Positions 1-34,597 of a stretch of 64,000 bases of DNA are shown here, in pieces. Position 1 is the first letter of the stretch, and each line of letters starts with the position of its first letter. Under the pieces are notes generated by a model that was not told where the DNA came from, made no database searches, and saw only the letters and a program-made list of their open reading frames with translations. Source of the stretch: Acidobacteriota bacterium (GTDB lineage: Bacteria; Acidobacteriota; Thermoanaerobaculia; Multivoradales; Multivoraceae); assembly GCA_029263415.1 (NCBI GenBank), contig JAJCXN010000046.1, positions 1 through 64,000 on the forward strand, read 5' to 3'. A program made the position numbers and the translations under genes.

Positions 1-142
1 TAGCGCTCCAAGGAAGAAGGGAGGCAGCAAGAACAACTGACCAATGGTTTGGGAATCGAAAGGAAGACTTCAACTAACCAGCTGCGGAAACCGGCCAAAG
101 TAATTGTCGCCAAACCGGACAAAGTAATTGACGCGGGACACT
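1..142. mobile_element. Probable insertion-sequence end with terminal direct repeats
   Basis: Two 19-bp direct repeats that differ at one base (88-106 and 112-130; core CAAAGTAATTG) lie just inside a possible terminus near ACGCGGGACA at 131-140. Repeated short motifs near the tip are typical of IS21-family ends. One + frame entering from the left edge ends in a short basic tail with a stop near 40, which could be the end of a transposase or helper protein. The rest of the element would lie left of the window. The family assignment is tentative; a phage regulatory repeat is the alternative. Confidence 0.4.
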
Positions 143-231: not shown

Positions 232-702
232 TTATGAGTCTGGCAAGGCTCTCTGTTTGGCCATTTGTTCGCGATAGACAGCGATCTCTTCCGGACCTGT
301 TTGAGCGATGAGGTCGGCGAACTCTTTGACCGCCGACTCACGTACCACCTCTAGGCTCTCCACCGTGTGTGCCTCAAGGCCGAACTGGCGAAGGATTTCT
401 GCGAGCACGGCAAAGGCGTCCTCGGGTGGTGCCCCGGCTTCGAGTGCGGTCACAACTGACATCGCAATCTGTTGGCCCGGCGATCGGCGCTCTGTCTGAA
501 AGTCATCGGTCGGCAGCTGGTCCGCCTTACGGCCAGTCCACTTGTACAAGGTCGACTTGGACAATCCCATACGCGAGGCGTTGCGCTTGATCCCTCCGGC
601 TTCGAGAGTTGTGCGCTCGGCAGCTGCAAGAGTGCGGGTGTCCAAACGCGGACCGATTTTGGACTTCCCTACTAGGCTTGGCGGTGTAACCCTTTCGCTC
701 AT
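232..702 (-). CDS. Phage-type HTH regulator (CII-like position)
   Basis: 156-aa soluble protein with a helix-turn-helix-like segment around residues 35-56 (GGIKRNASRMGLSKSTLYKW), preceded by a basic N-terminus and followed by an acidic helical region (residues 80-145) that may oligomerise. It starts 2 nt after the stop of the Cro-like gene 704-952, so the two are co-transcribed leftwards. A second small HTH gene directly after cro is the position of cII-type activators in lambdoid phages. The function as activator or early regulator is inferred from position and the HTH only. Downstream early genes would lie towards or beyond the left edge, where an insertion element may have interrupted them. 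Confidence 0.65.
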   Translation of the reverse strand: MSERVTPPSLVGKSKIGPRLDTRTLAAAERTTLEAGGIKRNASRMGLSKSTLYKWTGRKADQLPTDDFQTERRSPGQQIAMSVVTALEAGAPPEDAFAVLAEILRQFGLEAHTVESLEVVRESAVKEFADLIAQTGPEEIAVYREQMAKQRALPDS

Positions 703-703
703 G

Positions 704-952
704 TCAGGCCACCTCCAAGAACGAAGGGTCCATCCAAGCTGCTGCAGGAATTCGTCCTTTGGTCGCTCTCTGGACTTCTGTGGCCCATCTCAGGCTTGGT
801 GTGAGAGACCCGGTCTCAGCTCTCGACACGTAGCCTGCGTCGCAACCAATCTGCTCTGCCAGCTGGACTTGGGTCAGTTGGCGCTCGGCCCGCCAAGCCA
901 CCAGCAGCTTCCCTGGCGAAGAGGTGTTGCGTCCGACTGTTTTCTTGTTCAT
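704..952 (-). CDS. Cro/CI-family HTH protein, Cro-like
   Basis: 82-aa protein with a classic XRE/Cro helix-turn-helix at about residues 24-50 (LTQVQLAEQIGCDAGYVSRAE) and almost nothing outside the DNA-binding domain, the size of a phage Cro or a YdaS-type repressor. It is divergent from the larger HTH gene 1051-1578, giving the two-repressor arrangement of a phage immunity switch. A good sigma-70-type promoter (959-987) lies immediately upstream with its predicted start at the ATG, so the transcript is probably leaderless. No Shine-Dalgarno sequence precedes the ATG, which agrees with that. Confidence 0.75.
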   Translation of the reverse strand: MNKKTVGRNTSSPGKLLVAWRAERQLTQVQLAEQIGCDAGYVSRAETGSLTPSLRWATEVQRATKGRIPAAAWMDPSFLEVA

Positions 953-1061
953 TTCGACAGTGTACGCATATCTCTTGTTGAAGTCAACATATGATTTCCC
1001 TCTTGAGAGAAGCTAACGCTGAAGCCGCTTCTGTCATGCTTCATGTCGAAATGAACAAGAA
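942..1061. repeat. 18-bp perfect inverted repeat across the immunity region
   Basis: TGTCGAAATGAACAAGAA occurs on the minus strand at 959-942 and on the plus strand at 1044-1061. Each copy contains an ATG that opens a HTH gene reading MNKK. The arms are 84 bp apart. A perfect 18-bp match including untranslated bases is unlikely by chance. It may be a duplicated start box or an operator covering both starts. Confidence 0.75.
959..987 (-). promoter_or_regulatory. Sigma-70-type promoter for the Cro-like gene, predicted leaderless
   Basis: On the minus strand, -35 TTGACT (982-987) is separated by exactly 17 bp from -10 TACACT (959-964). The ATG of gene 704-952 begins at 952, seven bases past the -10 box, so the predicted start point is the A of the start codon. 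This parallels the leaderless cI mRNA made from lambda PRM. The promoter lies between the two divergent HTH genes, so an operator probably overlaps it. Confidence 0.7.
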
Positions 1062-1578
1062 GAATCCGACTGCAGAAGAAGTTGGGGCGGCGCTTGCCGA
1101 ACTCGTCCGCAAATCACCCCTTTCCAGGGAAGAAATTGCGAGCAAGACGGGAGTCTCCTCGGCCAATCAGAGCCGGTACTACTCAGCTCGTACTGATCCA
1201 CGCCTCAGCACAGTTCTCAAGATTCTTGAAGTGGTTGAGGGCGATCTTGAAGATCTTCATGTCGAGATCTCTGGAACTCCGAGCGATTCGTCCTTCAGTC
1301 AGACGGTGGCTTGGATACGTGAGCAAGCTGAGGCACAGCAATCGCAGCTTGAGCGCCGCAATAAGCAGCTTCTTGAGGATTGCGAGGATCTAAGTAATAC
1401 TGCTAGCCAGTTTGTTGATGCGCTGCTCACCGAAACGGGTGTCCTGGAGCAGAAGGAACGAAGCGCCGTCGCTGCCAGGGCTGTCGCCCGCGTGAAGGCA
1501 ATTCAATCTGTAGAAAAGGTAGAAGCAGAAGACTCCGGGGGGCTTCGTGGGCTCATCGCAAAATTCACTCGGCGATAG
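1051..1578 (+). CDS. CI-like XRE-family repressor
   Basis: 175 aa from the ATG at 1051. A helix-turn-helix occupies about residues 22-55 (SREEIASKTGVSSANQSRYY, then a recognition helix), followed by a long glutamine/glutamate-rich region predicted to form a coiled coil (residues 90-150). No LexA/CI-type Ser-Lys autoprotease motif is visible, so induction would differ from lambda. An upstream ATG at 991 gives 195 aa. I prefer 1051 because the bases around it match exactly the start of the divergent Cro-like gene, and 991 also lacks a ribosome-binding site. It is the first gene of a rightward block of accessory genes, the place of cI in lambda. Confidence 0.65.
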   Translation: MNKKNPTAEEVGAALAELVRKSPLSREEIASKTGVSSANQSRYYSARTDPRLSTVLKILEVVEGDLEDLHVEISGTPSDSSFSQTVAWIREQAEAQQSQLERRNKQLLEDCEDLSNTASQFVDALLTETGVLEQKERSAVAARAVARVKAIQSVEKVEAEDSGGLRGLIAKFTRR

Positions 1579-5557: not shown

Positions 5558-5749
5558 CTAGTTAGCCGGCACCGAGGCGCTGAGCCAGCGCCCAAGCTGC
5601 TCGACCTTCCCTAGCGCGCCTGCGAGCTCGTTGGCCTGGTCCTGCTTCCCTGCCTTCTCGAGATCGAACATGCGCGTCTTGAGGCACCGTCGGATGAGGT
5701 CGAGTTCTTCATCCGTGAAGGGTGCCGGTCGCTTTGGTTCAGTGCTCAT
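5558..5749 (-). CDS. 63-aa helical protein, copy 1 (paralogous to 7673-7864)
   Basis: 63-aa protein: a short proline-rich start (PKRPAPFTDEE), then two amphipathic helices (LDLIRRCLKTRMFDLEKAG and ANELAGALGKVEQLGRWL). A second copy of roughly 80% identity lies at 7673-7864 in the same orientation; the pair brackets the two TIR genes. This copy is divergent from TIR gene 1 (88 bp between starts) and converges with the RexB-like gene. The helical-hairpin form would suit a protein-protein partner, for example an inhibitor or adaptor of the TIR proteins, but that is inference. Confidence 0.6.
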   Translation of the reverse strand: MSTEPKRPAPFTDEELDLIRRCLKTRMFDLEKAGKQDQANELAGALGKVEQLGRWLSASVPAN

Positions 5750-5837: not shown

Positions 5838-6752
5838 ATGCCCAGTGACGATCGATTTCCCGTCTTCATAAGTTGGTCCGGCAAGCGAGCTCAGACGGTG
5901 GCCAGGGCGCTCAAGGACACAATCGCAACTGCCCTGCAAGCAACTAGCCCCTTCTTTTCAAGCGACATTGAAGCGGGGCGAGCCTGGGGGCCTGCCATTC
6001 AGGAGGCGCTGACGCAGGCCGACTACGGGATCGTGGTGGTCACTCCTGAGAACCAGGGCGAGACTTGGCTCAATTTCGAAGCCGGCGCTATTTCGAAGAT
6101 GCCGGAATCAAGGGTGAGCACACTACTGGTCGGGCTTTCAAAGACTGACTTAAGACCGCCGCTGAGCCTCTTCCAGGCCTCGGAGGGGTCGAGACGCGAC
6201 GACATCGAGAAGATCTTCCGTCAGATCAACGCAAGGGTAAGCGAGCGTGGTGGCGCGTCACTTGAGGAGGCTCCACTTCAGAAGCAGTTCGACGCGTTCC
6301 TGCCATCGGTTGTGATGACCATCGAGAAAGCCGCTGCAAGCGAGCAGGACGTACCGGAGCGTTCTAGAGACGATATGACAGTTGAAGTCCTCTCCAACAC
6401 TCGACTGATGCTCAAGCAAATCCAACGAATCTCCAGCCATGTTCGCTCCAACGACACGCCGACGGACCATGGTGCAAGCAAGCGTCCCCTTTCTCAAGCA
6501 GAAGTTGAGAAAGTCTACCAGGCGCGCTTCCTAGTCGAGAGCGCGCTCAAAGACGATGCGGGGCTGCAGGAGTTTGTCTTGGAGATGCCTGTTCTGCCCC
6601 CGAGTGAGATTATTCGTCTGCATAATGTTGCCCTTGCCCTAGCCGCTTCCTTAGATGAGGGCTCTCCCGAGCTTGAACGGCACGCCCAGCTGATTCGTTT
6701 TCTAAGGGGTATGATCGGACCAAAAGAGTCAACAGTGCTGGACTTCCGGTAG
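5838..6752 (+). CDS. TIR-domain protein 1 (putative NAD-consuming effector)
   Basis: 304 aa. Residues 7-140 form a TIR domain: a first strand with VFISWSG (boxed FIS-S motif), SSDIEAGRAW, the strand YGIVVVTP, then WLNFEAGA, giving the W-x-x-x-E signature with W77 and E81; in NADase TIR domains the equivalent glutamate is catalytic. Residues 165-300 are a separate helical region differing from that of TIR gene 2. AGGTGA lies before the ATG. Bacterial TIR proteins usually degrade NAD or make cADPR-type signals in phage defence (for example Thoeris ThsB). No ThsA-like partner is seen, so the mechanism is open. Confidence 0.7.
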   Translation: MPSDDRFPVFISWSGKRAQTVARALKDTIATALQATSPFFSSDIEAGRAWGPAIQEALTQADYGIVVVTPENQGETWLNFEAGAISKMPESRVSTLLVGLSKTDLRPPLSLFQASEGSRRDDIEKIFRQINARVSERGGASLEEAPLQKQFDAFLPSVVMTIEKAAASEQDVPERSRDDMTVEVLSNTRLMLKQIQRISSHVRSNDTPTDHGASKRPLSQAEVEKVYQARFLVESALKDDAGLQEFVLEMPVLPPSEIIRLHNVALALAASLDEGSPELERHAQLIRFLRGMIGPKESTVLDFR

Positions 6753-6812: not shown

Positions 6813-7676
6813 ATGACTGACGACAACAGACTGCCGGTGTTCATTAGTTGGTCTGGGCCACAGGCCAAGGTGGTCGCTGAAGAACTGAAGCTCACCCTCC
6901 AGACCGCTATCCACAATACGAGACCTTTCTTCTCCGCTGACATTGAAGCCGGCCAGCGATGGAGTGAGGCGATCCGGCGAGCTTTGGAAGACGCCGACTA
7001 CGGCATCATCGTGGCCACACCGGCTAACCGACTGAAGCCATGGCTCCACTTCGAGGCGGGAGCGATATCGAAGTTGCAAGACTCACGAGCGAGCGTGCTG
7101 CTAGTTGGGATGAGTGCAACCGACCTAGAGCCGCCGCTGAGCCAGTTTCAGGCGACAGAGGCGAGCGATGAATCTGGTCTACGTAAACTGTTCGGGCAGA
7201 TCAACGACCGCACTGCCGCTCGAGGCCACAGACCGCTCGACTACCCGGCGCTGACCAAGATGCTCGACAGGTTCCTACCGGATCTGTCCGAAGTGATCGC
7301 GGAATCGGTACCTGACGCTAGCGAGGCGGCCGTCGCAGCACCCCGCGGCCGAGACAATGATGAGAAGATCGACGAACTGCTCAGTATCGTCCGAAGGCTG
7401 GAGCGCCCGGTCGTGCTAGGGCCGATTAGCGGCGGGATTCAACTATCCCCGGTTGGCGAGTGGGCCAAGCGGACGGCCATTGAAGCCGTTGCGAGTAACG
7501 AAGGGTTCCTGTCTCTGCAGCGCTTCATACACACCACCCCAGAGGACCACGACTGGGGGTCACTCAGGTCCGCACTCAACAGGGAGGCCCGCCGCCCGAA
7601 TCAATCGCCGGAGCGGTCAGACAGGGCACGGATGCTAGTTGACAGTATCGACCAAATCGAGTCAGGACGGCCCTAG
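6813..7676 (+). CDS. TIR-domain protein 2 (paralogue of protein 1)
   Basis: 287 aa. The N-terminal 130 residues parallel TIR protein 1 nearly position for position: VFISWSG at 9-15, SADIEAGQRW, YGIIVATP and WLHFEAGA with the same W77/E81 pair. The C-terminal part (about 150-287) is unrelated in sequence, so the two proteins probably share the catalytic activity but differ in sensing or partner binding. The gene begins 60 bp after TIR gene 1, same strand, likely one transcript. Its stop overlaps the stop of the convergent 63-aa gene by 4 nt. Confidence 0.7.
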   Translation: MTDDNRLPVFISWSGPQAKVVAEELKLTLQTAIHNTRPFFSADIEAGQRWSEAIRRALEDADYGIIVATPANRLKPWLHFEAGAISKLQDSRASVLLVGMSATDLEPPLSQFQATEASDESGLRKLFGQINDRTAARGHRPLDYPALTKMLDRFLPDLSEVIAESVPDASEAAVAAPRGRDNDEKIDELLSIVRRLERPVVLGPISGGIQLSPVGEWAKRTAIEAVASNEGFLSLQRFIHTTPEDHDWGSLRSALNREARRPNQSPERSDRARMLVDSIDQIESGRP

Positions 7677-7864
7677 TTCACCAGCACCGACTCGCTCAGC
7701 CATCGCTTGAGCCGCTCGACTTTGCCTAGCGCGCCGGCGAGTTCGTTGGCCTGCTCCAGCTTCCCGGCCTTCTCGAGGTCGAACATGCAGGTTTTCAGGC
7801 ACCGCCGAATGAGGTCGAATTCCCCGTCCGTGAAAGGGGCGGGCGGTCTTGGTGGCTCACTCAT
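7673..7864 (-). CDS. 63-aa helical protein, copy 2 (paralogous to 5558-5749)
   Basis: 63 aa from the ATG at 7864 (a longer reading to 7894 is not matched by the paralogue). It has the same proline-rich start and two-helix body as copy 1 (MFDLEKAG and ANELAGALGKVE identical). DNA similarity to 5558-5749 is also high, so these are direct repeats about 2.1 kb apart flanking the TIR pair. The gene converges tail to tail with TIR gene 2. A duplication of a small gene plus TIR unit, or a recombination boundary for cassette exchange, are both possible. Confidence 0.6.
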   Translation of the reverse strand: MSEPPRPPAPFTDGEFDLIRRCLKTCMFDLEKAGKLEQANELAGALGKVERLKRWLSESVLVN

Positions 7865-7923
7865 GGGCGCAAGGTCGCACCGCGCCGGACGCATCTCCAG
7901 GTCCTTCAGCTAGGAGGTCCAAT

Positions 7924-34521: not shown

Positions 34522-34597
34522 TGGTGCCCAGACGCGGATTTGAACCACGGACACCCTGATTTTCAGTCAGGTGCTCTACCAGCTGAGCTATCTGGGC
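34522..34597 (-). tRNA. tRNA-Phe (GAA)
   Basis: On the minus strand the acceptor stem GCCCAGA pairs with TCTGGGC, the anticodon loop is CTGAAAA (GAA), the T loop is GTTCAAATC and the CCA end is encoded. Its 3' end faces the prophage, the usual orientation for integration into the 3' part of a tRNA gene. Confidence 0.97.

Follow-up and report, generated by a model that had tools for sequence, protein, structure and literature searches.

A putative lambda-type switch with three operator-like sites and a predicted leaderless cro gene in a prophage integrated in tRNA-Phe

The locus studied here is best read as the immunity region of a tailed temperate phage that resides as a prophage in a tRNA-Phe gene. 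We propose, with a probability of roughly two in three, that it carries a lambda-type switch with three operators (A, B and C) and a leaderless cro. The window, that is the whole stretch of DNA analysed, comprises 64,000 nucleotides (contig C46:1-64000), and the elements of the proposed switch are located as follows.

232..702, minus strand: second leftward gene, 156 aa, with GGAGG ahead of its ATG
704..952, minus strand: Cro-like HTH gene, 82 aa (MNKKTV...), identified by Pfam and PHROG; probably the first gene of a leftward early operon
942..959, minus strand: operator-like site A, TGTCGAAATGAACAAGAA, on the cro ATG and the expected transcription start; core 946-959
959..987, minus strand: predicted cro promoter, -35 TTGACT 987-982, 17-bp spacer, -10 TACACT 964-959
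973..990, minus strand: operator-like site B, core 976-989 TGTTGACTTCAACA, overlapping the cro -35 box and abutting the rightward -10
990..995, plus strand: TATGAT, candidate -10 of the right gene, with a poor -35
1044..1061, plus strand: operator-like site C, exact inverted copy of A (TGTCGAAATGAACAAGAA), on ATG 1051; core 1044-1057
1051..1578, plus strand: CI-like HTH gene, encoding 175 aa (195 aa from ATG 991), with a helical tail in the predicted structure

The prophage setting, which appears to be divided between two contigs, was overlooked in the original prediction. At 14-32 kb of the window, PHROG matches identify leftward-running genes for the large terminase, portal, major head, tape measure and endolysin proteins, and a tRNA-Phe gene is found at 34522-34597. 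The 3' part of this gene matches a second contig, C34 (L039, 9017 bp), and defines the right attachment site:

34522..34570, no strand assigned: attR, a 49-bp exact match to C34 (L039:7823-7871, attL), in the 3' part of tRNA-Phe

A 410-aa integrase adjoins the attL copy on C34, a contig in which ARAGORN detected no tRNA. C34 also encodes an O-like replication protein and a nucleotide phosphatase, and both genes run leftward, like cro, once the contig is put in the window orientation. Judging from the att repeat and gene order, the prophage would probably extend from attL on C34 to C34:1, and from C46:1 to attR in the window. If the contigs join in this way, cro is probably the first gene of the early operon. 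A search for overlapping contig ends was negative, as no 25-mer from the first 200 bases of the window occurs in C34. A 21-bp stretch is common to window positions 90-110 and C34 positions 114-134 on the same strand; it is not an end overlap, and in a start-to-start join it would form an inverted repeat around the junction. Beside the integrase lies a 91-aa gene (C34 6177-6452) without a PHROG match, which by its position could encode an excisionase.

To the right of the switch, the frame that follows the right gene (1547-2599) encodes a 350-aa product with hydrophobic stretches and without a PHROG match. The right gene (991-1578) overlaps this frame by 32 bases if the latter starts at GTG 1547, and the two may be co-expressed. 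Beyond further unknown genes lie two neighbouring TIR-domain genes (5838-6752 and 6813-7676), both of which match the PADLOC TIR-TM model. The pair is flanked by small antisense frames (5558-5749, 63 aa; 7673-7894, 73 aa) that are similar by eye, as if a TIR gene plus a small gene had been duplicated inside the prophage.

The assignment of the two genes to divergent phage regulators is borne out, in that both products are HTH-like by Pfam or PHROG. The left protein scores above the Pfam cut-off for HTH_31 (32.3 bits) and HTH_3 (25.4 bits), and its PHROG matches are transcriptional regulators. The right protein also matches PHROG transcriptional regulators (best E 2.8e-6); its HTH_31 score of 25.1 bits is below the cut-off of 27, which weighs against the model. 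The locus thus has the pair of oppositely oriented HTH regulator genes, within a temperate phage, that is expected of a lambda-type switch. The 156-aa product of the second leftward gene has a weak HTH_Tnp_1 or CII-like resemblance (Pfam below cut-off; PHROG E 0.027). No S24 peptidase domain is present among the eight Pfam matches of the right protein at E up to 1, a further point against the model, so we do not classify this protein as a homologue of lambda CI. S24 is missing from many temperate-phage repressors, and its absence would bar the name of lambda CI homologue, not a function like that of CI. Structure models of both regulators are poor (mean pLDDT ∼58), and the helical tail of the right protein comes from such a low-confidence model. 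BLASTP gave no local alignment between the left and right proteins at E up to 100; an origin of the two regulators by gene duplication was rejected on this lack of similarity.

The repeat on which the operator proposal was founded is exact: the arms at 942-959 and 1044-1061 are complementary at 18 of 18 positions and lie 84 nt apart. As had been described, the same 18 bases sit in inverted orientation on ATG 952 and on the possible ATG 1051. The 64-kb window has no other exact inverted repeat of at least 14 bp with starts at most 150 bp apart, and ten Markov simulations averaged 0.0 such repeats at k=14 (for k=12, 8 were observed vs 1.7 simulated). Moreover, a 14-bp inverted repeat within 200 bp arose in only 1 of 2000 dinucleotide shuffles of 800-1300. 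A chance origin of the 18-bp pair is very unlikely.

The original proposal of an operator holds for the arms, which fit operator sites and are strengthened in this role by the related site B over the -35 box; taken alone, the 18-bp pair fits an RNA hairpin as well. In that case the arms would pair in RNA crossing the region, whether from read-through or from a promoter within the opposite gene, a stem of at least 18 bp would bury the start codon, and only RNA from a gene's own promoter (for cro, RNA starting at the AUG) would be translated, the repeat being selected for pairing and not for protein binding. The 134-nt region 935-1068 folds at -49.6 kcal/mol on the plus strand (z -6.7) and at -43.7 kcal/mol on the minus strand (z -4.2), with none of 200 shuffles as stable on either strand and both arms paired in the best structure, and the short transcripts from the predicted promoters are not unusually folded (z -0.2 and 0.5). 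That A and C agree at all 18 bp also fits pairing, and transcripts of the required kind occur elsewhere: the part of PMC4488713 devoted to phage PY54 immunity describes a strong promoter for cI located at the 5' end of cro. However, these z-scores add little to the repeat itself, since any long perfect inverted repeat folds well. In addition, a relaxed scan (TANNNT with at least 4/6 matches to TATAAT, 15-19 bp from any -35; 700-1100 on the plus and 900-1300 on the minus strand) yielded -10 candidates that all lie between the arms or at the cro start, and none inside the opposite gene from which RNA would cross both arms. We consider a repeat acting through RNA pairing alone unlikely. A repeat with a double duty, in which DNA operators on both start codons also form a hairpin in read-through RNA that hides the start codon, is rather improbable as well. 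If true, each regulator would be made only from its own promoter, and cro only from mRNA starting at the AUG, giving a switch insulated on the level of DNA as well as RNA.

Site B, a diverged third copy between the arms, was missed in the earlier reading. Positions 973-989 share 13 of 17 bases with the arm and are oriented like the left arm; when the 84 bp that separate the arms (960-1043) were dinucleotide-shuffled 20000 times, 68 shuffles gave a match at least as good. Its core TGTTGACTTCAACA is a perfect 6-2-6 dyad, and at least one such dyad appeared in 426/20000 shuffles of the same stretch; perfect 6-2-6 palindromes alone are not rare (29 in the window). Site B does not lie on a start codon, and for this reason a DNA site accounts for the shared sequence better than a translation signal does. 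It is worth noting that RNA pairing leaves unexplained this site, with its own palindrome over the -35 box and no start codon. Site B bears likewise on the view that the MNKK codons and the 7 preceding bases are simply an inverted duplicate of a start region with no present operator function. With a start at ATG 1051, 11 of the 18 bases would be coding, and A-rich starts may suit leaderless or SD-poor initiation. On the other hand, 7/18 matched bases lie outside the genes, the third copy is outside any start, and no duplication is evident given the absence of BLASTP alignment between the proteins. A copied start region is an improbable explanation.

The three sites share the consensus TGTYGANNTSAACA, followed in each case by AAGA, and are centred at 952.5, 982.5 and 1050.5, that is 30 and 68 bp apart. 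A set of related operator-like sites over and between divergent promoters is thus present at the sequence level. Three features weigh against the operator model: A and C are imperfect palindromes (4/6 half-site pairs by hand count), their identity over 18 bp extends outside the dyad, beyond the needs of an operator, and the AAGA tail is one-sided. When the 6.9-Mb genome was screened with the 17-mer TGTYGANNTSAACAAGA, the three exact matches were sites A, B and C. Three more matches, on other contigs, carried one mismatch, and a reversed-pattern control gave 1. As this consensus was drawn from A, B and C themselves, the informative part of the screen is only the absence of further exact sites. 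The second prophage contig, C34, contains no site with at most one mismatch to the looser TGTYGANNTSRACA, and no second operator region like lambda OL was found there.

The promoter claimed for cro is present as described, the minus strand reading TTGACT, 17 bp, TACACT, GTCGAA (958-953) and ATG (952-950). ATG 952 is the most upstream ATG, GTG or TTG in the open cro frame, TACACT starts exactly at -12 from it, and none of GGAG, GAGG or AGGA occurs in the 45 bases upstream. TTGACT-17-TACACT is the only promoter-like site at 700-1700 and the best site in the scans. Its count does not exceed chance (1 found vs 0.4, sd 0.5, expected in shuffles of ∼1 kb), and it is its placing, not the quality of the match, that argues for it. 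This expected frequency also leaves room for an ordinary leadered cro, whose -10 would be TATGTT (991-986), which has a 3/6 -35 at 19-bp spacing, or would lie further up, with TTGACT/TACACT a chance match. The rank of the TTGACT-17-TACACT site in the scans, the lack of the three SD-like 4-mers before ATG 952, and a -12 spacing that coincides with the leaderless peak of the host (see below) all speak against a leader, which we find improbable.

This peak, which had gone unnoticed in the original prediction, emerged from 1,225,302 bases of the window's own genome (contigs C46, C51, C9, C23, C48 and C38). From 874 ORFs of at least 150 aa, called mechanically and uncurated, 696 had a usable first ATG, and TANNNT stands at -12 in 27 of them, whereas positions -70 to -21 average 3.44, with a highest count of 9. 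The motif is also raised at -13 (13 ORFs) and -15 (14), and a smaller nested sample has the same -12 peak (10/258). At later in-frame ATGs, TANNNT was found at -12 in 1 of 539 cases and at -13 in 8. No common -35 was detected among the 27 ORFs with TANNNT at -12, a point against the model. SD-like 4-mers precede 211/696 of the host ORFs vs 64 in a control stretch. In the part of PMC3160421 dealing with leaderless bacterial genes, -12 is the position described for such a motif. The claim of a leaderless cro gains support from a suitably placed promoter and from a host signature with the same spacing, and a leaderless cro mRNA, in agreement with this signature in the host's own genes, is the best reading of the sequence. 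A TA-led hexamer at -12 is found for cro and is missing for the right gene at ATG 1051.

ATG 991 opens the rightward frame, which contains in addition TTG 1003, ATG 1036 and ATG 1051 and ends at 1578. ATG 1051 (MNKK...) is a plausible start; the GC3 of 991-1050 (0.45 over 20 codons, vs 0.53 in the rest of the frame) does not settle the choice. The idea that the right gene is leaderless as well did not survive, as CTTCAT, not TANNNT, occupies -12 of ATG 1051, and a leaderless mRNA from this codon was rejected on this ground. The only rightward TANNNT in 930-1060 is TATGAT 990-995, so that the mRNA of the right gene would have a leader of ∼49 nt to ATG 1051; this gene is probably leadered. TTG 1003, located 13 nt downstream of the first base of TATGAT, could also serve as the start, but leaderless initiation at TTG is poor.

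In the lambda-type switch that we favour, the leftward 82-aa protein would act as Cro, its gene heading the early or replication operon, and the rightward HTH protein would act as a CI-type repressor. A (946-959), B (976-989) and C (1044-1057) would be operators for one or both HTH proteins. The 5' end of the cro mRNA is expected at the AUG or within 1-2 bases of it, and a dimer on A would cover together the edge of the -10, the transcription start and the cro start codon. A dimer on B would shut off the cro promoter at its -35 and crowd the rightward -10 TATGAT at 990-995. A dimer on C, ∼49 bp into the repressor transcript, would damp repressor expression, either as a roadblock or through a loop to A or B. 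If the sites bind repressor, a single dimer would thus cover promoter edge, transcription start and start codon, a compact form of silencing.

Searches of viral contigs and phage records with both proteins, of 72 genomes of the order with the right protein and of a phylum sample of 396 genomes with the left protein turned up no close relative of either regulator. The collections searched contained no relative of the regulator pair, which weighs against the operator model. For the right protein, none of 8 stretches in viral contigs was confirmed, phage records gave 0, and one of 158 stretches in genome contigs was confirmed, with a match to residues 96-161 only. At E<=1e-3 it has matches in 10/60 genomes (its own and nine others), at 25-38% identity and mostly in the HTH; 13 loci listed from those genomes (ORFs of at least 55 aa) contain no divergent Cro/CI pair by eye, and the two-site pattern is absent from the genomes of these loci. 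At E<=1e-5, matches were obtained in 3/72 genomes of the order, its own included. For the left protein, 0/8 viral-contig stretches were confirmed, and 17 phage records matched, all below 60% identity and none covering 80%. Three weak other matches (E 0.003-0.03) are present in its own genome, and 3 of 396 genomes of the phylum sample have a match at E<=1e-6, its own included. The other two loci of this sample have no site within 2 mismatches of TGTTGANNTCAACA near the HTH gene, and their neighbours are not phage-like by eye.

Searches with the sites themselves gave a similar picture. The two-site pattern occurs in 12 stretches of viral contigs, 0/12 lying between divergent HTH genes according to ORF lists; most are short repeats inside or beside unrelated frames. 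The exact 18-mer was found in one viral contig, inside an unrelated coding frame. Within the class, 3/148 genomes contain the two-site pattern, namely the window's own and two others. The latter were rejected as immunity regions, being instead 21-bp tandem arrays of palindromic units (L124:5669-5975 and L125:5383-5730), in which the 21-bp unit contains the palindrome TGTTGANNTCAACA or one near it.

Leaderless cI and cro are already known from the telomere phage PY54. For its immB region, the relevant part of PMC4488713 reports, by RACE, a single mRNA starting at the AUG for cI and for cro, the two genes being divergent with a 116-bp gap and a palindromic operator between them. The present locus resembles PY54 in its divergent regulators and in the predicted leaderless start of cro. 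However, in that account PY54 Cro binds one site only, near cI, and both cI and cro are leaderless, whereas the present locus has a leaderless-type promoter for cro alone and three related sites, of which two lie on (likely) start codons.

Comparable features have been described for paaR2/ydaS of CP-933P, a cryptic prophage of E. coli O157:H7. In the portion of PMC8630535 on this locus, the regulators are divergent with 97 bp between their starts, 5' RACE shows paaR2 to be leaderless, in line with protein data, and four equally spaced palindromes and three overlapping operators cover the promoters. The start distance is 98 bp here (952 to 1051, if 1051 is the start), and several related palindromes lie over both promoters, as they do in the CP-933P account. 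The two loci differ in that the CI-side gene is leaderless in CP-933P and the Cro-side gene is predicted to be so here, and in the presence here of three sites, with centres 30 and 68 bp apart, in place of four palindromes and three operators. The differences from PY54 and CP-933P are small.

The third point of comparison is the OR/PRM/PR region of lambda, whose cI mRNA is leaderless as stated in that part of PMC8630535. Both systems would have three operators, divergent cI and cro, and one leaderless mRNA out of two, that of cI in lambda and, by prediction, that of cro here. The lambda operators are ∼23-24 bp apart and lie between, not on, both start codons. In contrast, two of the three sites described here are centred on (likely) start codons, and the S24 domain of lambda CI was not found in the right protein. 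The present layout, tidy and slightly unusual, would add a lambda-like switch, and it belongs to a well-known kind of genetic switch.
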